Shown piece by piece: positions 578 to 57,488 of a stretch of 64,000 nucleotides of DNA (within the stretch, counting starts at the first letter, position 1; each line of letters starts with the position of its first letter). The stretch is from Pseudomonas sihuiensis (GTDB taxonomy: Bacteria > Pseudomonadota > Gammaproteobacteria > Pseudomonadales > Pseudomonadaceae), in contig NZ_LT629797.1 of assembly GCF_900106015.1 (NCBI RefSeq), forward strand, positions 868,001-932,000, given 5' to 3'. A program made the position numbers and the translations under genes. The notes under the pieces were generated by a model. The model was not told the DNA's origin. It searched no databases and saw only the letters and a program-made list of their open reading frames with translations.

Positions 578-2566
578 TCAAGCCCCTACAGCTTCGATTT
601 CCACCAGCAACTGGCGATTCTTCACCTGGTCGCCCTGGCTCACGCCGACGCGGCGAACGATGCCGTCGACGCCAGCCTTGAGCGGGTGCTCCATCTTCAT
701 CGCTTCCAGCACCACCAGCAATTGCCCCTTGCTCACGCTGGCGCCCTCGGCGATCAGTACGTCGACGATGGCGCCATCCATCGGTGCCTTCACCGCGCCG
801 CTGCTGGCGGCGTTCTGCCCACCAGCCGGCTCGTGGGTGACATCAACCAGTTCCAGGTTGCCATGCTCGCCGTACAGCCACAGGCGCTCGCCTTCGATGT
901 GGTAGGCCTGGCGGCGGCGCACGCCGTCCAGTTCCAGGGTCAACCAGCGGCCATCGCTGGCCAGCAGGCGCAGGGACAGCTGCTCCTCACCTCGGCTTAT
1001 GCGCAGTTGCGCTTGCGTACCACTGACGAGCACATCCAGCTCCACGGTATGTTTGTGCTCCCCCTGCTTGAGGACAAAGCGCCAGGGCGCACTGCCGGCG
1101 CTGCGCCAGCCGGACAGGCCGGGTTGGTGTGCACGGGCGTCGGCCGAGGCCTTGTAGAGCAGGGCGGCGGCCATGGCCAGCTCGGCCAGGCTGGCGCTGT
1201 GCGGATGCAGGCTTGGGTCATCAGCGAAGTGTTCGGCGATGAATGCCGTGGTGGCATTGCCGGCAGCGAACTCCGAGTTTTTGAGCAAATTGGCGAGGAA
1301 GCGCTGGTTGCCGTTCACACCCAGCAGCACGCACTGCTCCACCGCGCGCACCAGCTTGCGCCGGGCTTCGTCGCGGGTTTCGCCGTAGGCAATGACCTTG
1401 GCCAGCATCGGGTCGTAGAAGGGGGTGACGGCCTGGCCCTCGACCAGGCCGTGGTCGATGCGCACGCCGGCCAGCAGCTCGGGTTCCCAGCGCAGCACCT
1501 GACCGGTTTGCGGCAGGAAGCCGGCGGCCGAGTCCTCGGCATACAGGCGCACTTCCATGGCGTGGCCGGTGAGGCGAATGTCGTCCTGCTGCAGCGGCAG
1601 GGGCTGGCCCTCGGCAACGCGAATCTGCCAGGCCACCAGATCCTGATCGGTGATCAGCTCGGTGACCGGGTGCTCGACCTGCAGGCGCGTGTTCATTTCC
1701 AGGAAGAAGAACTCGCCGCTGGCGTCGAGCAAAAACTCCACGGTGCCGGCGCCGACATAGTTCACCGAAGCCGCCGCCTTCACCGCCGCCTCGCCCATGG
1801 CGCGGCGCAGCTCGGGCGTCATCACCGGGCAGGGCGCTTCCTCGACCACCTTCTGGTGGCGACGCTGCACCGAGCAGTCGCGCTCGCCGAGGTAGACGAT
1901 ATTGCCGTGCTGGTCGCCGAAGACCTGGATCTCCACATGGCGTGGGCGGATCACGGCGCGCTCGAGGATCAGCTCGCCGGAGCCGAAGGCATTCTGCGCC
2001 TCCGAGCGGGCGGTACGGATCTGCCCCAGCAGCTCGGCGGCTTCCTGTACCAGGCGCATGCCACGACCGCCGCCGCCGGCGCTGGCCTTGATCATCAGCG
2101 GGTAGCCGATGCGTTCGGCTTCGCTGGCCAGGGTGTCGTCATCCTGGGCGGCGCCTTCATAGCCGGGAATGCAGGGTACGCCGGCCTCCAGCATGGCGAT
2201 CTTGGACAGGCGCTTGCTGCCCATCAGGTGGATGGCGGAAGCGGTTGGGCCGATAAAGACGATGCCGGCCGCCTCACAAGCGCGGGCGAAATCTGCGTTC
2301 TCGGAGAGGAAGCCATAGCCGGGGTGGATGGCGTCGGCGCCGGTCTTGCGCGCGGCCTCGATGATGGCCTCGATACGCAGGTAGGACTGGTTGACCTGGG
2401 CCGGGCCGATGCACGCGGCTTCGTCGGCGATCTGTACATGGCGGGCATCGCTATCGGCCTCGGAGTACACCGCCACGGTGCGGTAGCCGAGCTCGATGGC
2501 GGTGCGCATCACCCGGCAGGCGATCTCGCCACGGTTGGCGATCAGGATCTTGTTGAATGCGGGCAT
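578..2566 (-). CDS. atuF: Geranyl-CoA carboxylase biotin-containing alpha subunit AtuF
   Basis: A 662-residue biotin-dependent acyl-CoA carboxylase alpha subunit. The N-terminal biotin carboxylase domain starts ILIANRGEIACRV and has the glycine-rich ATP-grasp loop ASAGGGGRGM near residue 160. The C-terminus has the biotinylation motif EAMKM, with the modified Lys near residue 624. With AtuC it carboxylates cis-geranyl-CoA in the cytoplasm. The closest alternative is LiuD (methylcrotonyl-CoA carboxylase alpha); the neighbours AtuA-E make AtuF the better call. The gap from atuE holds a strong hairpin. Confidence 0.93.
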   Translation of the reverse strand: MPAFNKILIANRGEIACRVMRTAIELGYRTVAVYSEADSDARHVQIADEAACIGPAQVNQSYLRIEAIIEAARKTGADAIHPGYGFLSENADFARACEAAGIVFIGPTASAIHLMGSKRLSKIAMLEAGVPCIPGYEGAAQDDDTLASEAERIGYPLMIKASAGGGGRGMRLVQEAAELLGQIRTARSEAQNAFGSGELILERAVIRPRHVEIQVFGDQHGNIVYLGERDCSVQRRHQKVVEEAPCPVMTPELRRAMGEAAVKAAASVNYVGAGTVEFLLDASGEFFFLEMNTRLQVEHPVTELITDQDLVAWQIRVAEGQPLPLQQDDIRLTGHAMEVRLYAEDSAAGFLPQTGQVLRWEPELLAGVRIDHGLVEGQAVTPFYDPMLAKVIAYGETRDEARRKLVRAVEQCVLLGVNGNQRFLANLLKNSEFAAGNATTAFIAEHFADDPSLHPHSASLAELAMAAALLYKASADARAHQPGLSGWRSAGSAPWRFVLKQGEHKHTVELDVLVSGTQAQLRISRGEEQLSLRLLASDGRWLTLELDGVRRRQAYHIEGERLWLYGEHGNLELVDVTHEPAGGQNAASSGAVKAPMDGAIVDVLIAEGASVSKGQLLVVLEAMKMEHPLKAGVDGIVRRVGVSQGDQVKNRQLLVEIEAVGA

Positions 2567-3520: not shown

Positions 3521-4681
3521 TCAGCCTTTCTTCTTCCCTGGCAGGATGCCCATCAGCTTGCAGATGATGCCGAGCATGATCTCGTCGGCGCCGCCGCCGA
3601 TGCTGACCAGGCGCACGTCGCGGTAGGCGCGCGACACCGGGTTGTCCCACATGAAGCCCATGCCGCCCCAGTACTGCAGGCAGGCGTCGGACACTTCGCG
3701 GCCCAGGCGGCCGGCCTTGAGCTTGGCCATCGACGCCAGCTTGGTCACGTCGCGGCCCTTTACGTATTGCTCGGTGGCCTGGTAGACCAGCGCGCGCAGG
3801 CACTCGATCTCGGTCTGCAACTCGGCCATGCGGAAGTGGATGACCTGGTTGTCGATCAGCGGTTGGCCGAAGGTGTGGCGCTGCTTGCAGTACTCGATGG
3901 TGGTGTCGACGCAGTGCTCCAGTCCCTTGATCATGTTGGCCGCGCCGAACAGGCGCTCTTCCTGGAACTGCAGCATCTGCATCATGAAACCGGCGCCTTC
4001 GTGGCCGATGCGATAGCGCTGCGGTACACGCACGTTGTCGAAGAACACCTGGGCGGTCTCGGAGCTGCGCATGCCGAGCTTGTCCAGGTGCGGGCTGACG
4101 CTGATGCCCGGGGTCTTCATCGGCACCACGATCAGTGATTTGTTGACGTGCGGCTTGTCGTCGCTGGTATTGGCCAACAGACAGATAAAGTCGGCACTCG
4201 GAGAATTCGTGATCCACATCTTGCTGCCGTTGATCACATAGTCGTCGCCGTCCTTGCGCGCGGTGGTCTTCAGGCCCGCCACGTCGGAGCCGGCACCGAC
4301 CTCGGAGACGCCGATGCAGCCGACCATCTCGCCGCTGATGGCCGGGCGCAGGAACTCTTCGCGCAGCTCATCGGAGCCGAAGCGTGCCAGGGCCGGGGTG
4401 CACATGTCGGTCTGCACGCCGATGGACATGGGGATGCCGCCGCAGTGGATGGTGCCGAACTCCTCGGCGGCGACTATCGAGTAGCTGTAGTCCAGGCCCA
4501 TGCCGCCGAACTTCTCCGGTTTGGAGATGCCCAGTAGGCCCAGCTCGCCGGCCTTCTTGAAGATCTCGTGGATGGGGAAGCGGCCTTCCTTCTCCCAGGC
4601 GTCGACGTGCGGATTGATTTCCTTGTCGACGAAGTTGCGGACGGTACGGCGGAGTTCTTCGTGCTCTTGAGTGAAGATCAT
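3521..4681 (-). CDS. atuD: Citronellyl-CoA dehydrogenase AtuD
   Basis: A 386-residue FAD-dependent acyl-CoA dehydrogenase. The family motif EVGAGSDVAGLKT is seen near residue 135, and the C-terminal part has QYWGGMGFM. AtuD oxidises citronellyl-CoA to cis-geranyl-CoA. Where medium-chain enzymes carry the catalytic Glu in a YEGT motif, this protein reads SIGGGADEI, so that Glu is absent. The acyl-CoA dehydrogenase at 56340 shares this trait. The start is the ATG at 4681 (MIFTQEHEE); upstream codons fall in a REP pair. Confidence 0.92.
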   Translation of the reverse strand: MIFTQEHEELRRTVRNFVDKEINPHVDAWEKEGRFPIHEIFKKAGELGLLGISKPEKFGGMGLDYSYSIVAAEEFGTIHCGGIPMSIGVQTDMCTPALARFGSDELREEFLRPAISGEMVGCIGVSEVGAGSDVAGLKTTARKDGDDYVINGSKMWITNSPSADFICLLANTSDDKPHVNKSLIVVPMKTPGISVSPHLDKLGMRSSETAQVFFDNVRVPQRYRIGHEGAGFMMQMLQFQEERLFGAANMIKGLEHCVDTTIEYCKQRHTFGQPLIDNQVIHFRMAELQTEIECLRALVYQATEQYVKGRDVTKLASMAKLKAGRLGREVSDACLQYWGGMGFMWDNPVSRAYRDVRLVSIGGGADEIMLGIICKLMGILPGKKKG

Positions 4682-4762: not shown

Positions 4763-6379
4763 TTAAAATCTCGCGACGCCGAAGCTGCTTTTCTTCAACG
4801 GCCGCAGGTTGGCTTCGGCGCAGATATCCAGCAAAAAGCCCAGCAGCTTGCGCGTGTCGCGCGGGTCGATCAGGCCGTCATCCCACAGGCTGGCGGTGCC
4901 ATACAGCGCGGTGGACTGGCTGTCGAGCTTCTGTGCGGTCACGGTTTCCAGCATGTCGAGCATCTTTGGATCTGCTTCCTTGCCCTCCTTGGCGTGCTTG
5001 TCCTCGGTGACGATGCGCAGCACCTTGCCGGCCTGAGCGCCGCCCATCACGGCGGTCTTGCTGTTGGGCCAGGCGAAGATAAAGCGTGGGTCGAGGCCGC
5101 GGCCGCACATGGCGTAGTTGCCAGCGCCGTAGGAGCCGCCGACGACGATGGTGAGCTTGGGCACAGTGGCGTTGGCCACGGCCTGGATCATCTTCGAGCC
5201 GTGCTTGATCACGCCGTTCTGCTCGGACTCCGTGCCGACCATGAAGCCGGTGGTGTTGTGGAAGAACAGGATCGGCGTGTTGCTCTGCTCGCACAGCTGG
5301 ATGAACTGCGCCGCCTTGGCCGCGCCCTGCGGGGTGATCGGGCCGTTGTTGCCGATGAAACCGCAGGCCTGGCCTTCGATCTGCAGGTGGCCGCATACGG
5401 TCTGGCTGTCGAACTCGTTCTTGAAGTCGAGGAACTCCGAGCCATCGGCAATGCGCGCGATGATCTCGCGTACGTCGTAGGGCTTCTTGGCGTCGGCCGG
5501 CACCAGGCCGAGCAGTTCCTCTGCCGGGTACAGCGGTTCGCGCCAGCTTTTCGCCGGGCGTGCCGGCAACTGCTGGTTCCACGGCAGCATGCCAAGGATC
5601 TCGCGCGCCAGGCGTACACCGTCGGCGTCATTCTCGGCCAGGTACTCGGCGGTGCCGGCGACCTGGGCGTGCATCTCGGCGCCGCCGAGTTGCTCGTCGG
5701 TGGCGATCTCGCCGGTGGCGGCCTTAAGCAGAGGCGGGCCGGCGAGGAACATCTTGGCCTTGCCGCGTACCACCACCACGTAGTCCGACAGGCCGGGCTG
5801 GTAAGCCCCGCCAGCGGTGCTGGAACCATGCACCACGGTGATCTGCGGCAGGCCCATGGCGGACATGCGCGCCTGGTTGGCGAAGCCGCGTGCACCTTCG
5901 ACGAAGATGTCGGCGGCATAGTTGAGGTTGGCGCCGCCGCTCTCGGCCAGGGTCACCACCGGCAGCTTGTTCTCGAAGGCGATCTGCTGCAGGCGCAGCG
6001 ACTTCTTCAGGCCAGTGGGGGAGATGGTGCCGCCCTTGATCGCGCTGTTGTTGGCGATCACCAGGCAACGCACGCCAGCGATGTAACCGATGCCGGCGAT
6101 GATGCCGCCGCCGGCCTGGCTGCCGTCCTTGTCGTCGTGCAGCTTGTAGCCGGCCAGCGAGGACAGTTCGAGGAACGGTGCGCCGGCGTCGAGCAGCAGG
6201 TTGATGCGTTCACGCGGCAGCAATTGGCCACGCTTCTCGAACTTGGCCTTGGCTTCCTGCGCCTTGTCGAGCACCTTCTGCTCGACGTCGCGGAAGGTTG
6301 CGATGGCTGCCAGCATGGCTTCGCGGTTCTGCGCGAAGGCTTCGCCATGCACATCGATTTCCGATTGGATCACGGGCAT
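4763..6379 (-). CDS. atuC: Geranyl-CoA carboxylase beta subunit AtuC
   Basis: A 538-residue carboxyltransferase subunit of the acyl-CoA carboxylase family. It contains GGAYQPGLSDYVVVVRGKA in the N-lobe and GSYGAGNYAMCGRG in the C-lobe, typical of MCC/GCC beta subunits. It transfers CO2 from biotin on AtuF to geranyl-CoA. The start at 6379 is 4 bases beyond the atuB stop, so translation is probably coupled. LiuB is the main alternative; the order atuA-B-C-D favours AtuC. Confidence 0.92.
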   Translation of the reverse strand: MPVIQSEIDVHGEAFAQNREAMLAAIATFRDVEQKVLDKAQEAKAKFEKRGQLLPRERINLLLDAGAPFLELSSLAGYKLHDDKDGSQAGGGIIAGIGYIAGVRCLVIANNSAIKGGTISPTGLKKSLRLQQIAFENKLPVVTLAESGGANLNYAADIFVEGARGFANQARMSAMGLPQITVVHGSSTAGGAYQPGLSDYVVVVRGKAKMFLAGPPLLKAATGEIATDEQLGGAEMHAQVAGTAEYLAENDADGVRLAREILGMLPWNQQLPARPAKSWREPLYPAEELLGLVPADAKKPYDVREIIARIADGSEFLDFKNEFDSQTVCGHLQIEGQACGFIGNNGPITPQGAAKAAQFIQLCEQSNTPILFFHNTTGFMVGTESEQNGVIKHGSKMIQAVANATVPKLTIVVGGSYGAGNYAMCGRGLDPRFIFAWPNSKTAVMGGAQAGKVLRIVTEDKHAKEGKEADPKMLDMLETVTAQKLDSQSTALYGTASLWDDGLIDPRDTRKLLGFLLDICAEANLRPLKKSSFGVARF

Positions 6380-6383
6380 CGCC

Positions 6384-7253
6384 TTACTCCTGATCTTTCA
6401 GTACATCGGGCAGGTAGGCCCGGTGGAAACCGTTGTAGGGCTCGCTGTTTTTCGCCTTGCCCAGCGTCCAGGCATGGGTGCCCTGGCTGGCGGCGCCATC
6501 GATGCGGATGGTGTTGCCGCTGATGAAGTTGGCGCCGGGGCTGAGCAGGAAGACGATGGCCGCGGCCACCTCGGACTCGCTGCCGATGCGTTGCAGCGGC
6601 ACGTGATCCTTGAGATTGCGGATCATGTTCTTCATCGACTCGGGGTAGGTGTCCATGCCGCTGGAGGCGATCCAGCCCGGCGCCACGGCGTTGACCCGCA
6701 CGCCGGCGTGGCCCCACTCGTAGGCGGCGGTCTTGGTGAAGTTCTCCATACCAGCGCGCGCGGCCCCGGAGTGGCCCATGCCGGGCATGCCTCCCCACAT
6801 GTCGGCGAGCATGTTGACGATGCTGCCGCCGTGCTTGCTCATGCTCTGCAGGAAGACTTCCTTGGCCACCAGAAAGCCGCCGACCAGGTTGGTACGCACC
6901 ACGGTCTCGAAGCCTTTCTGGTTGATGCCGATCAGCGGCGCGGGGAACTGGCCGCCAGCGTTGTTGACCAGGTGATGGATGCGTCCGCGCTGCGCAATCA
7001 CAGCACCGACCATGGCCTTCACGGCTTCTTCGTCACGGATGTCGCAGACCTGGAAGCTGGCGCTGCCGCCGTCCTCGGTGATCTCGGTGCAGGTCTTCTC
7101 CAGCTTTTCCTGCTTGCGCCCGACCAGCACCACATGAGCGCCCAGGTGGGCCAGCTCGTGGGCCACGCAGCGGCCGATGCCACTGCCACCGCCGGTGACC
7201 AGGATGGTCTGGCCTTCGAACAGGCCGGGTTTGAATACGGAGTCGTAGCTCAT
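6384..7253 (-). CDS. atuB: SDR-family oxidoreductase AtuB
   Basis: A 289-residue SDR with nucleotide motif VTGGGSGIGRC and the NNAGGQFPAP segment. Around the usual YxxxK active site it reads GHSGAARAGMENFTK, so the catalytic Tyr is not in place. This pattern resembles the 2,4-dienoyl-CoA reductase/trans-2-enoyl-CoA reductase subgroup. AtuB is required for citronellol use in P. aeruginosa but its reaction is not certain. The ATG at 7253 is used; atuC follows after 4 bases. Confidence 0.88.
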   Translation of the reverse strand: MSYDSVFKPGLFEGQTILVTGGGSGIGRCVAHELAHLGAHVVLVGRKQEKLEKTCTEITEDGGSASFQVCDIRDEEAVKAMVGAVIAQRGRIHHLVNNAGGQFPAPLIGINQKGFETVVRTNLVGGFLVAKEVFLQSMSKHGGSIVNMLADMWGGMPGMGHSGAARAGMENFTKTAAYEWGHAGVRVNAVAPGWIASSGMDTYPESMKNMIRNLKDHVPLQRIGSESEVAAAIVFLLSPGANFISGNTIRIDGAASQGTHAWTLGKAKNSEPYNGFHRAYLPDVLKDQE

Positions 7254-7278: not shown

Positions 7279-7328
7279 GGTGCGCGCAGCGCACCCTACG
7301 GGCGGGTGTAGGGTGCGCCGTGCGCACC
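7279..7328. repeat. REP-like palindromes overlapping the 3' end of atuA
   Basis: GGTGCGCGCAGCGCACCCTAC and GTAGGGTGCGCCGTGCGCACC face each other across a 7-base spacer. The element spans the atuA stop codon at 7296-7298 and encodes the last residues of AtuA. The family recurs at 20297-20361. Confidence 0.8.
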
Positions 7329-9116
7329 AGTCAAGGTCTCGGCCAGTGCCCTGGGCACCGGCACCGGGAATTCCAGCAGTTGCTGGGCGAACGCCTTGCC
7401 CTGCGGGTCGATGCGCAGGCTGGCGACGCCACCACCGCCAAGCGCGTTTTCCAGCAGGAAGTTGAGGCTGTGGCTGCCCGGCAGGTACCAGCGGCTGACG
7501 CGACCCTGCTCGGCGTCCAGGGTATGCGCCATCCACTTGGCCACGGCTTCGGGTGTCAACGCAGCGGCTATCCACGCCAGGTATTCGGGCTGTCTCGCCA
7601 TCACGCCGATGTTGCTGTGATTGCCCTTGTCGCCGGAGCGGGCCACGGCCAGGCGGATCAGTGGCACGGAGGCGTCGGCTTCGCCCATCGGTACGGGCAG
7701 GGCGGCCGGCGCGTGCAGTCGCTCGGGGTTGAAGGCATCGACCTGGGGCAGGGTGACCGGCTGGCGCTCGCCGCCGATTTCCACCTCCAGCGCGCAGGCG
7801 CTCTTGTCCACCAGGAAGCTGAGCAGGCGGATCACCGGGTAGACGGTGGGACGACCACCGACGATGCCGGTCAGGCCCGGTGCCATGCCAGTGGCGGCCT
7901 GGGCGATCTCGCGGGAGAAGAGGATCAGCGCCTCCTTCTTGGCATGACGCACGGCGATCTTCACCACCAGCTCGCGACTATCCTGGCGACGAGCGTGGGC
8001 ACCATAGGTGGCCTCGCTACCCAGCAGCTCGACGCTGACCTCCTGGTAACGGCCCCAGCCACGTTCAGCAAACATCTCTTCGGTCTTGTTGATGATCGCC
8101 TGGCTGACCCGCTCGGCCTTGGCCACCGCATCGATACCGGCGAGCACGCAGCTGGCGGTGCAGCGAAAACCGTCCGGGTGGGTGGCGCTGACCTTGTATT
8201 GCCCGGTGGGCGGCAGGCCGCGCGCGCCCTGCAGCTGCACGCGGTGGTCGCCGACCTGGCTCAGCGCGACCTGGGTGAAATCGCAGACTACATCCGGCAG
8301 CAGATAGGCGCGCGGGTCGCCGATCTCGTAGAGCATCTGCTCGCCAACGGTAAAAGGCGTGACCAGGCCGCCGGAACCCTCCGGCTTGGTCACGACGAAG
8401 CGGCCATCGTCCTCGACTTCGACGATGGGAAAACCGATGTGCTCGTAGTCCGGCACGTCGCGCCAGTCGGTGAAGTTGCCACCGGTGCACTGCGCGCCGC
8501 ACTCGATGATGTGCCCGGCCAGCGCAGCCTGGGCCAGCTTGTCGTAGTCGCTCCAGGACCAGCCGAACTCGTGCACCAGGGCGGCGCTGACCACGGCGCT
8601 GTCGACCACGCGGCCGGTGATGACGATGTCGGCGCCCTGTTCCAGCGCGGCGACGATGCCCGGTGCGCCCAGGTAGGCGTTGACCGAAACGCAGAAGGGC
8701 GGCAGCGGCGCGCCCGTGAACATCTCGCGGGTGCCGGCCTTGACCAGCTCACCGAGCTTGGGCTGCAGGTTGTCGCCATGCAGCACGGCAATCTTCAGCT
8801 GTACGCCGGCCTGTTCGCAGGCGGCGCTCAGGGCGGCGGCGCAGGCCATCGGGTTGACCCCGCCGGCGTTGCTGATGACGCGGATCTTCTTCGTCGCGAT
8901 GTTGCCCAGCAGCGGCGCGAGCACCTCGACGAAATCGCGGGCATAGCCGTCGTCAGGCTTCTTCATACGGGCGCCGGCCATGATCGACATGGTGATCTCG
9001 GCCAGGTAGTCGAACACCAGGTAATCCAGTTCGGCACCCTGAACCAGTTGAGCGGCAGCGGTGGAGGTGTCGCCCCAGAAGGCCGAGGCGCAGCCGATGC
9101 GTACGGTTTTGTTCAT
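7296..9116 (-). CDS. atuA: Acyclic terpene utilisation protein AtuA (DUF1446)
   Basis: A 606-residue protein matching the AtuA/DUF1446 family, beginning [18 protein letters not shown]. AtuA is essential for citronellol degradation in P. aeruginosa and has been proposed to act late in the Atu pathway; its biochemistry is not settled. The ATG at 9116 is used; an in-frame ATG at 9137 adds 7 residues, and neither has a good ribosome site. The last few residues come from a REP element. It is the first gene of the operon, divergent from atuR. Confidence 0.92.
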
Positions 9117-9157
9117 TGGAATTGGCCCGTCACACATTGAGAAGGTGAGTTGACATT

Positions 9158-9176
9158 ACCAAGCAAGCGCTTGGTT
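9158..9176. promoter_or_regulatory. AtuR operator, copy 1
   Basis: ACCAAGCAAGCGCTTGGTT: 7-bp arms ACCAAGC/GCTTGGT around AAGC, with AAGCGCTT nested inside. It lies 42 bases upstream of the atuA start. From published work, AtuR binds two 13-bp inverted repeats in the atuA-atuR gap; this and the 9214 site are their counterparts by position and symmetry. Confidence 0.85.
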
Positions 9177-9213: not shown

Positions 9214-9232
9214 GCCCAAGCGCTTGCTTGGT
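9214..9232. promoter_or_regulatory. AtuR operator, copy 2 (opposite orientation)
   Basis: CCAAGCGCTTGCTTGGT at 9216-9232 is the exact reverse complement of 17 bases of copy 1, with centres 58 bp apart. A weaker third match, CAAGCACTTGC, lies at 9266-9276. Confidence 0.85.
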
Positions 9233-55031: not shown

Positions 55032-55064
55032 AGATCATTGCCCGCCAACTTTTGCAGGACTTCC

Positions 55065-55664
55065 ATGAGCTTCAGCCCTCTGATTCGCCAGTTGATCGAT
55101 TCTCTGCGCATCCTGCCCGGCGTCGGCCAGAAGACCGCGCAGCGCATGGCGCTGCAGCTGCTCGAGCGCGATCGCAGTGGTGGTCTGCGTCTGGCGCAGG
55201 CACTGAATGCGGCGATGGAAGGCGTGGGGCACTGCAAGCGCTGCCGCAGCCTGAGCGAGGACGAAATCTGCCAGCTGTGTCTGGACGAGCGCCGCGACGA
55301 CAGCCTGCTGTGTGTGGTCGAAGGTCCGATGGACGTGCATGCCGTGGAGCAGACCGGCTTTCGCGGCCGTTATTTCGTGCTCAAGGGGCATCTCTCACCG
55401 CTCGATGGTCTGGGGCCAGAGGCCATCGGTATTCCGGCGCTGCTGGAGCGTATCGATGCCGGTGCTTTCAGCGAAGTGATCCTGGCCACCAACCCGACGG
55501 TGGAAGGCGAGGCCACGGCGCACTACATCGCTCAGATCCTCGCCGGTAAAGGTCTGGTCGCCTCGCGCATCGCCCATGGCATGCCGCTCGGTGGCGAACT
55601 GGAACTGGTCGACGGCGGCACCCTGGCCCATGCCTTGGCAGGTCGGCGCCCGATCAGCCTGTAA
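55065..55664 (+). CDS. recR: Recombination mediator RecR
   Basis: A 199-residue RecR. An N-terminal helix-hairpin-helix region ([16 protein letters not shown]), a four-Cys zinc finger (CKRC...CQLC) and a Toprim domain ([14 protein letters not shown]) are seen. It helps load RecA at gaps. The ATG at 55065 (MSFSPLI) has GCAGGAC upstream; the frame from 55038 is not expected. Confidence 0.95.
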
Positions 55665-55694
55665 GCAGTCAAACCCTCTCGATTCGGAGTGCCA

Positions 55695-56273
55695 GTGACC
55701 ACCGACACTCTGCGCCGTATTGCTCTGCTGCTCCTGCTCGGGGCGCCTCTGGCCGTACAGGCTCAATGTCCGACCGGGCAGGTACAGGTGTGCCTGGGCG
55801 CTTCCTGCTTGTGCGTGCCCGATCCGGTACGGGTACGCGAAGATGGCCTGAATATGGCGGCGGCGCGTCTCGAAGCCTGGTTGCTGCAATCTCGCCAGGC
55901 AGCACTGCTAGCCGGCACCGAACCTATCCCTCTGATGATTCGTGCCCAGCTCGCGCCTTTCTACGACGATGCATTGCTTGATGAAGTGCGCTTTCGCGTG
56001 GGCATCACCGACGAGATGGACGCCGCCACCGTCATGCTGCAGAACCCCGATGTGCAGGCCGTGACGCTGGTCGACGTGGTGGTATTTCGCAACGCCGATG
56101 CTGCTGCAGAGGATGCAGCGCTGTGGGCGCATGAATTGTGGCATGTGCAGCAATACCGCGAGTGGGGCACCGATGGCTTCGCCCAGCGTTACACGCGCAA
56201 TTTCCAGTCGGTGGAAGGGCCAGCCTACGAGATGGGCGAGCGGGTGAGAAAAGCGTTGCGCGGGCAGAAATGA
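55695..56273 (+). CDS. Exported DUF4157-like protein
   Basis: A 192-residue protein with signal peptide (LRRIALLLLLGAPLAVQA) and a Cys-rich mature start (CPTGQVQVCLGASCLC). The C-terminal HELWHVQQY plus EGPAYEMGERV resembles DUF4157 (metallopeptidase-like HExxH without the second Glu; here HELWH is intact). The GTG at 55695 follows GGAGT. The role is unknown, perhaps a periplasmic peptidase-like protein. It lies between recR and the acyl-CoA dehydrogenase. Confidence 0.7.
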   Translation: MTTDTLRRIALLLLLGAPLAVQAQCPTGQVQVCLGASCLCVPDPVRVREDGLNMAAARLEAWLLQSRQAALLAGTEPIPLMIRAQLAPFYDDALLDEVRFRVGITDEMDAATVMLQNPDVQAVTLVDVVVFRNADAAAEDAALWAHELWHVQQYREWGTDGFAQRYTRNFQSVEGPAYEMGERVRKALRGQK

Positions 56274-56288
56274 AACGCTCGCTTGAAA

Positions 56289-56307
56289 ACCAAGCAAGCG
56301 CTAGGTT
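56289..56307. promoter_or_regulatory. Candidate AtuR operator upstream of the acyl-CoA dehydrogenase
   Basis: ACCAAGCAAGCGCTAGGTT is 18/19 identical to the 9158-9176 AtuR operator, in the 66-base gap before the gene at 56340. One change (T to A) weakens one arm. Confidence 0.75.
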
Positions 56308-56339
56308 AGGGTGGCCAAAATAATAACGGGAGTACCCGC

Positions 56340-57488
56340 ATGGCCGCCTCTCTGTCGTATTTCGATGAGTCCCACCAATTGGTTCGCGATTCCGTTCGGC
56401 GTTTCGTCGAGCGCGAGATCCTGCCGCATATCGACGAGTGGGAGGAGGCCGGGGATTTTCCTCGTGAGCTGTACCTCAAGGCTGGCGCTGCGGGCATTCT
56501 CGGTATCGGTTACCCGGAGCAGCTCGGCGGCAGTCATGAGGGTGACGTGTTCGCCAAGGTGGCGGCCAGCGAGGAACTGATGCGTAGTGGCTCCGGCGGC
56601 CTGGTGGCTGGGCTCGGTTCGCTGGATATCGGTTTGCCGCCCATCGTCAAATGGGCCCAGCCCGCCGTGCGCGAACGTGTGGTGCCGCAGGTACTGGCTG
56701 GCGAGAAGATCATGGCGCTGGCGGTGACCGAGCCCTCCGGTGGCTCCGACGTGGCCAATCTCAAGACCCGCGCTGTGCGCGACGGCGATCATTACCGCGT
56801 CAATGGCAGCAAGACCTTCATCACCAGCGGCGTGCGTGCCGATTACTACACGGTGGCGGTGCGCACCGGCGGTGAGGGCTTTGGCGGCGTCAGCCTGTTG
56901 CTGGTGGAGAAGGGCACGCCGGGTTTCAGTGTCGGTCGCAAGCTGAAGAAGATGGGTTGGTGGGCGTCGGATACCGCCGAACTGTTCTTTGACGACTGCA
57001 AGGTGCCGGTGGAGAACCTGATCGGCGTGGAGAACGCCGGTTTCGCCTGCATCATGGCCAACTTCCAGAACGAGCGCCTTAGCCTGGCGATCATGGCCAA
57101 CATGACCGCACAACTGGCCCTGGAAGAGTCCCTGAAGTGGGCGCGCGAGCGCCAGGCGTTCGGCAAGCCGGTGGGCAAGTTCCAGGTGCTCAAGCACCGC
57201 CTGGCCGAGATGGCCACGCAGCTCGAAGTCTCCCGTGAGTTCACCTACCGTCAGGCCGCGCAGATGGCGGCCGGCAGGAGCGTGATCAAGGAGATCTCCA
57301 TGGCCAAGAACTTCGCCACCGATATCGCCGATCGCCTGACCTACGATGCGGTGCAGATCATGGGTGGCATGGGTTACATGCGCGAAAGCCTGGTCGAGCG
57401 CCTGTACCGCGACAACCGCATCCTCTCCATCGGCGGTGGTACGCGGGAGATCATGAACGAGATCATCGCGAAGCAGATGGGGCTGTAG
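56340..57488 (+). CDS. Acyl-CoA dehydrogenase (PA1535-type, likely terpenoid/branched substrate)
   Basis: A 382-residue FAD acyl-CoA dehydrogenase. The family motif PSGGSDVANLKT, FGKPVGKFQ and MGGMGYM are present. Near the C-terminus it has SIGGGTREI instead of YEGT, lacking the usual catalytic Glu, as does AtuD here. It follows recR, the place of PA1535 in P. aeruginosa, which I recall being studied alongside AtuD in citronellol catabolism. An AtuR box stands 33 bases upstream. Confidence 0.88.
   Translation: MAASLSYFDESHQLVRDSVRRFVEREILPHIDEWEEAGDFPRELYLKAGAAGILGIGYPEQLGGSHEGDVFAKVAASEELMRSGSGGLVAGLGSLDIGLPPIVKWAQPAVRERVVPQVLAGEKIMALAVTEPSGGSDVANLKTRAVRDGDHYRVNGSKTFITSGVRADYYTVAVRTGGEGFGGVSLLLVEKGTPGFSVGRKLKKMGWWASDTAELFFDDCKVPVENLIGVENAGFACIMANFQNERLSLAIMANMTAQLALEESLKWARERQAFGKPVGKFQVLKHRLAEMATQLEVSREFTYRQAAQMAAGRSVIKEISMAKNFATDIADRLTYDAVQIMGGMGYMRESLVERLYRDNRILSIGGGTREIMNEIIAKQMGL

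Follow-up and report, generated by a model that had tools for sequence, protein, structure and literature searches.

Does the repressor encoded in an atu cluster also control an acyl-CoA dehydrogenase gene that lies far outside this cluster? The question arises in a 64,000-nucleotide stretch of Pseudomonas sihuiensis DNA (hereafter the window), which holds both a divergent atuA-atuR arrangement and a PA1535-type dehydrogenase gene (Table 1). An earlier note on this DNA had proposed that the 19-base palindrome in front of atuA recurs upstream of the dehydrogenase, and the sequences bear this out: ACCAAGCAAGCGCTAGGTT at 56289-56307 is identical in 18 of 19 bases to the atuA-side site ACCAAGCAAGCGCTTGGTT at 9158-9176, and the two are separated by 47,131 bp. 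The 33-base spacing to the dehydrogenase was also given correctly, as the 18-base core ends at 56306 and the ATG stands at 56340. Set against the published 13-bp AtuR repeat AGCAAGCGCTTGG, the dehydrogenase operator agrees in 12 of 13 bases (AGCAAGCGCTAGG). The description of the gene as lying beside recR is slightly loose: the RecR identity holds, but a small gene (55689-56273) lies in between. This small gene encodes an eCIS_core domain and, judged by eye, has a signal-peptide-like start.

Table 1. Predicted operators, promoter elements and genes; positions are those of the window unless a locus (L) is named.
Feature	Position	Strand	Remarks
atuF-type biotin carboxylase/biotin carrier subunit	578-2566	-	biotin carboxylase and biotin carrier models, position
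atuD-type citronellyl-CoA dehydrogenase	3521-4681	-	acyl-CoA dehydrogenase domains; SIGGG, QEERL motifs
atuC-type carboxyltransferase subunit	4763-6379	-	TIGR01117 below cut-off, plus position
atuB-type short-chain dehydrogenase	6384-7253	-	SDR models all below cut-offs, plus position
atuA, first gene of the divergent cluster	7296-9137	-	ORF, named by position; no NCBIfam hit
Predicted AtuR operator S1, atuA-atuR intergenic	9158-9175	+	perfect 18-mer
Predicted AtuR operator S2, ACCAAGCAAGCGCTTGGG	9215-9232	-	second atu copy, opposite strand; overlooked in the earlier note
atuR, TetR-family repressor, 206 aa	9341-9961	+	Pfam TetR_N, TetR_C_24
recR	55038-55664		RecR identity confirmed
-35-like hexamer TTGAAA	56283-56288	+	directly 5' of operator
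Predicted AtuR operator ACCAAGCAAGCGCTAGGT	56289-56306	+	1 mismatch to the atuA site, position 15
-10-like hexamer TTAGGG	56306-56311	+	overlaps last operator base
Acyl-CoA dehydrogenase, PA1535-type, 382 aa	56340-57488	+	Pfam PF02771/PF02770/PF00441
Predicted fadD4-type operator and acyl-CoA synthetase	L199: 5206-5223, 5259-6923		genome 1,035,206 onwards
Patchy AtuR-type site, third dehydrogenase	L201: 5838-5855		
Patchy AtuR-type site, acetyl-CoA synthetase	L200: 4559-4576		

Could the second copy be fortuitous? A search of the window with a 20-base version of the site, allowing up to 3 mismatches, returned only the 56289 copy and the atuA site, and 100 shuffles of the window returned none, so that a chance origin of the copy at 56289-56307 is excluded. 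Throughout the genome (5,476,267 bases), the 18-mer ACCAAGCAAGCGCTTGGT occurs with 0-1 mismatch at four places, which are the two atu sites, the dehydrogenase site and 1,035,206. Allowing 2 mismatches adds 262,687 and 5,171,838 (2 mismatches each) to make six, and the reversed 18-mer pattern has no match in the source genome at that level. At 0-3 mismatches, 17 rows were returned versus 4 for the reversed pattern. Nine further places carry 3 mismatches; seven of these lie inside a longer ORF, one (455,969) precedes a 445-aa ORF, and the ninth, before an acetyl-CoA synthetase gene, is an exact symmetric core. This exact core (CCAAGCN4GCTTGG) is found at five places, namely the two atu sites, 1,035,207, 2,930,560 and 5,171,839, and the three outside the cluster all precede acyl-CoA or acetyl-CoA genes. 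When one mismatch is tolerated the symmetric core occurs at 26 places versus 15 for the control, and a one-mismatch core by itself is therefore weak evidence. We discarded 262,687 as a target: among the matches listed, its sequence is confined to G000 and three genomes of the same genus, and the neighbouring ORFs gave no acyl-CoA link.

We next considered conservation, for which the earlier note had suggested a search of the whole genome and of relatives. The named contigs provided at least 80 dehydrogenase loci (77 titled Pseudomonas and 3 titled only as Gammaproteobacteria or Pseudomonadaceae MAGs), and all 80 loci listed carry the site with at most 2 mismatches, 30-50 bp upstream of the aligned start. 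Of these sites 7 are perfect, 67 have a single mismatch and 6 have two. A draw of 248 Pseudomonadaceae genomes, scored for the dehydrogenase at E <=1e-130 and for AtuR at E <=1e-50, contained the former in 97 and the latter in 108, and all 97 were among the 108. Hence, at the thresholds used, the PA1535-type gene occurs in this draw only alongside AtuR and in none of the 140 genomes without it. The operator stands upstream of the dehydrogenase in 97/97 of these orthologues, 16 times perfect, 80 times with one mismatch and once with two, while the best match of the reversed control has 6 mismatches. With AtuR as a stand-in for an intact cluster, no orthologue in either sample had the cluster and lacked the site.

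The number of sites per genome follows the same distinction. Counting the 18-mer at up to 2 mismatches, with full palindromes counted on both strands, we found a mean of 5.03 sites in genomes with AtuR and the dehydrogenase (minimum 3), 1.82 in the 11 AtuR-only genomes and 0.18 in the 140 AtuR-less ones; the reversed control gave 0.25-0.27 in each of the three groups. The 25 sites in the 140 AtuR-less genomes, versus 36 control matches, are at chance level. Before atuR itself, the S1 site was perfect in all of the 30 best family loci read. Seven genomes with AtuR and without the dehydrogenase were also read: in four (G142, G019, G218 and G067, corresponding to L387, L388, L390 and L391) the atuR site is weak, with 2-4 mismatches, and in three (G054, G062 and G161) it is perfect. 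The operator may thus be drifting in the first four, where the outlying target is lost.

One operator base behaves differently from the rest. At position 15 (56303 in the window), 79 of the 97 orthologues have C or A, departing from the T of the atuA site; the S1 sites before atuR in the 30 family loci read all keep this T. The change lies in the right, -10-proximal half, and it may be a target-specific deviation that tunes affinity; as the base departs from the atuA site, affinity is perhaps lower than at atuA.

The operator also occupies a fixed promoter register. In the window it fills the 17-bp spacer between the -35-like and -10-like elements, and among the 80 loci listed a TTGnnn hexamer stands in spacer register directly upstream of the operator in 78 (TTGAAA in 47, TTGTAA in 19), and a TA- or TT-starting hexamer begins at the last operator base in all 80. 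Read towards atuA, the S1 site shows the same register, with 17 operator bases followed by TAATGT. The -10-like element of the source window is poor, and a formal sigma-70 consensus scan of the window called no promoter at the dehydrogenase operator. In a footprint over the loci listed, which was anchored on the best site match and so favours the site, the information content is close to 2 bits in every site column but position 15 (0.61) and position 1 (1.61), and below 1 bit in most flanking columns.

Is the association confined to the family? We drew 194 genomes from the order (dehydrogenase at E <=1e-115, AtuR at E <=1e-40) and found both proteins in 37 and neither in 144; 5 genomes had only the dehydrogenase and 8 only AtuR, which gives a Fisher p of 1.7e-26 for the co-occurrence when kinship is ignored. 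AtuD was also present in 36 of the 37 genomes with both. Among 35 extra-family genomes with the dehydrogenase, we read the upstream regions of the 23 best-scoring loci; these 23 come from seven family labels, and the five dehydrogenase genomes without AtuR lie outside them. The site is present with at most 2 mismatches in 21 of the 23, and 15 times it is perfect; two loci (L421 and L429) have no site upstream of the dehydrogenase though AtuR is present. In 9 of the 23 the site is reversed, and 7 of these 9 are still perfect. The S1 site before atuR was perfect in 13/13 loci read, out of 38 AtuR-bearing genomes of other families, whose AtuR is 56-65% identical. The dehydrogenase gene lies less than 10 kb from atuR in G316 and G253.

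What else might AtuR control? The site at 1,035,206 precedes the gene of a 555-aa AMP-binding acyl-CoA synthetase, which is followed by genes for a 4HBT thioesterase, an AraC-type regulator and an alpha/beta hydrolase (Pfam). In length and layout this set fits the PA1617-PA1623 (fadD4) operon type; the FadD4 operon, in the part of PMC8637051 available to us, likewise has a 555-aa synthetase with genes of these three types after it. The transporter gene of that operon is unconfirmed here, as the ORF examined had no Pfam hit. P. aeruginosa mutants of this operon grow poorly on citronellol, and the excerpts of the same source do not describe AtuR control (PMC8637051). Matches to the fadD4 type were found in 133 of the 248 family genomes, and we tested 101 of the 102 with AtuR, leaving out G142 for its 47% identical paralogue, and the 13 best of the 31 without AtuR. 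The site is present with up to 3 mismatches in 97 of the 101 (within 2 in 92; the commonest centre is AAGT), the misses being L340 and L381-L383. It was found in none of the 13 AtuR-less orthologues read, which are more distant (50-64% identical), so that this contrast is unmatched for divergence. PA1617 is absent from the genes that the portion of PMC4412052 seen by us names as changed by cis-2-decenoic acid, and this speaks against a joint response of fadD4 in those data.

Two further candidates, whose genes follow the remaining two exact symmetric cores of the source genome, were set aside as core targets because their sites are patchy. For the acetyl-CoA synthetase, whose gene sits after one for phosphoglucose isomerase (Pfam), and for a third dehydrogenase, we read the best 30 loci among 147 and 85 matching genomes, respectively. 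The synthetase site is present in 12 of 29 AtuR-positive loci (up to 2 mismatches of the symmetric motif, with L500, whose start was unlocated, counted as a miss) and the third-dehydrogenase site in 12 of 30; at the one AtuR-less locus read in this set the site is missing. Of 208 genomes, 85 encode the third dehydrogenase, and 84 of these also have AtuR. In some relatives AtuR-type sites were also seen 5' of genes for DUF1302 proteins, at L164, L166 and L167 and at L173-L176 and L182 (Pfam: L166, L174), one group adjoining an M1-peptidase gene and another lying between DUF1302 and acyl-CoA ligase genes; DUF1302 proteins are possible uptake genes of the regulon. It is very likely that AtuR controls a gene set wider than its own cluster. 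The proposal that the regulon reaches outside the cluster is thus supported by the 97/97 orthologues and the tie to AtuR, and the regulon appears larger than was proposed, taking in the fadD4-type operon and others.

The enzyme itself shares features with the cluster's dehydrogenase. It is 39% identical to the AtuD-type protein of the window and 91% identical, over residues 7-382, to a protein of P. aeruginosa PA7 (L057), whose orthologous gene in PAO1 we take to be PA1535. As the earlier note had observed, both window enzymes carry SIGGG at the position of the MCAD-type YEGT. The candidate glutamate lies instead in QNERL (E245) of the dehydrogenase and QEERL of AtuD; this helix G position is that of the catalytic base in IVD and LCAD, and Glu245 in helix G probably replaces the YEGT glutamate as the base. 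The xERL and GGG motifs are present in 80/80 loci listed from the named contigs, and the ERL/IGGG pair in 23/23 loci read from other families. We rejected SIGGG as a mark of terpene or citronellyl specificity: the two solved structures closest to the dehydrogenase, which have no terpene naming, share IGGGT.

How does this compare with known systems? At atuA-atuR, AtuR binds a pair of 13-bp inverted repeats (Foerster-Fromme and Jendrossek 2010, quoted in PMC9973270). As far as such quotations go, the AtuR system of P. aeruginosa and P. citronellolis agrees with ours in repressor family, motif and divergent atuA-atuR layout with two sites, and the published sites, like the dehydrogenase site, lie just 5' of the -10 element. 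In contrast, the published sites are in the cluster, whereas here a single site with a changed position 15 precedes an unlinked gene 47 kb off. A close relative is RdmA of P. nitroreducens HS-18, which is 86% identical to P. aeruginosa AtuR and in EMSA binds the same repeats at dmgA; DSF releases it, and it represses the DSF degradation genes and also dig genes outside its cluster (PMC9973270). In the available part of that paper, no site before a PA1535-type gene or fadD4 is mentioned for the RdmA-dmg system. The genes that PMC4412052, as far as seen, lists as changed by cis-2-decenoic acid include PA1535, several atu genes and PA2885 (atuR).

The link of PA1535 to the terpene pathway, as given in the earlier note, agrees with a 2008 abstract quoted in PMC4714473 (Foerster-Fromme et al.): the protein was seen only in cells grown on acyclic terpenes and has high citronellyl-CoA dehydrogenase activity, with an affinity lower than that of AtuD. 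It also takes octanoyl-CoA and is dispensable for growth on terpenes, and AtuD is inactive on 5-methylhex-4-enoyl-CoA (quoted in PMC4714473). The window gene is orthologous to that of this enzyme, for which the quoted abstract names no operator. An AtuR iModulon exists (PMC9023270, in the part available). In the literature covered, outside which lie the 2008 and 2010 primary papers and the iModulon list, we found no AtuR site before PA1535 or PA1617; an earlier mention of either as an AtuR target is possible.

What mechanism would fit these observations? We put at roughly 87% the probability that 56289-56306 is a genuine AtuR operator that would occlude the dehydrogenase promoter and be released jointly with the atu and fadD4-type sites; AtuR binding at this position is a prediction made from sequence. 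AtuR, as a TetR-type dimer, would sit on the palindrome in the spacer between TTGAAA and the -10-like element and block RNA polymerase at the dehydrogenase promoter. Upon entry into the cell of acyclic terpenes, or of DSF-like branched or cis-2-unsaturated acyl compounds, an effector would free AtuR at the same time from the dehydrogenase site, both atuA/atuR sites and the fadD4-type operon. The cell would then produce simultaneously the acyl-CoA synthetase, the Atu enzymes, with the specific AtuD among them, and the broader acyl-CoA dehydrogenase. We infer both the effector and the exact substrate of the dehydrogenase, which most likely acts as a back-up citronellyl-CoA dehydrogenase and/or dehydrogenates shorter branched intermediates, for example 5-methylhex-4-enoyl-CoA.

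Several alternatives must be weighed against this mechanism. Some other TetR-type fatty-acid regulator that recognises a similar motif might bind the palindrome, the tie to AtuR reflecting only shared lineage ancestry. Indeed, the tie was counted across genomes ignoring kinship, and the first AtuR search of the source genome gave 37 candidates, not necessarily all TetR proteins, of which one passed E 1e-50. However, sites in the AtuR-less family genomes stay at or below the control, and the identical 18-mer stands perfect before atuR in the 30 best family loci and in the 13 loci read of other families, which makes a foreign regulator improbable in our estimate. A chance palindrome or a conserved RNA hairpin that no repressor binds is less credible still, to the point of being nearly negligible. 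A minus-strand hairpin of 13 pairs can be drawn across the operator at 56274-56302, in part because the preceding sequence repeats the GCTTG of the palindrome. Yet no shuffle reproduced the site, and its reversal in 9 of the 23 extra-family loci, with 7 still perfect, suits a DNA palindrome, unlike an RNA signal.

A more serious alternative grants AtuR the site and disputes the purpose of the enzyme, which would chiefly serve medium-chain or DSF-type fatty-acid oxidation, terpenes being incidental. Octanoyl-CoA use by the PA1535 protein and its dispensability on terpenes (quoted in PMC4714473), the release by DSF of the AtuR homologue RdmA from DSF degradation genes (PMC9973270, as available) and the LCAD/IVD kind of catalytic motifs all speak for it. 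Against it, the abstract quoted in PMC4714473 gives the P. aeruginosa protein a high activity on citronellyl-CoA and an expression specific to terpenes, and AtuD is present in 36 of the 37 genomes of the order that have both this gene and AtuR; on balance we regard it as rather unlikely. In a broader and still tentative picture, which we hold to be less likely than not, AtuR would stand as master repressor over an ancient regulon of several operons, kept in several families, that deals with branched and cis-2-unsaturated acyl compounds. Its parts would be DUF1302 uptake in some lineages, FadD4 activation, oxidation by the PA1535-type and third dehydrogenases and the Atu enzymes, with acetate recovery by acetyl-CoA synthetase in some species. 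DSF degradation and terpene degradation would then be two uses of one regulon, and operator variants would set the order of induction.

If AtuR does act at the predicted site, the operator is the likely direct cause of the reported terpene-only appearance of the PA1535 protein, and a fadD4-type operon under the same switch would bear on the identity of the acyl-CoA synthetase that activates citronellate. A short sequence with hardly any variation marks the regulon, which can thus be tested by a few gel shifts, and the close tie of AtuR to targets outside its cluster offers a clean case of a local repressor gaining distant ones. A last observation concerns AtuR itself. The nearest solved chains, 4MO7/4MXM, deposited as "Transcriptional regulator I2", are those of P. 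fluorescens pfiT, which together with its homologue PA2885 has been reported as a Crohn's-disease-associated T-cell superantigen (PMC3873459, seen in part). That paper states DNA binding by pfiT as not established, and the name AtuR is absent from its main text; the predicted AtuR operator would be the natural DNA target of pfiT.
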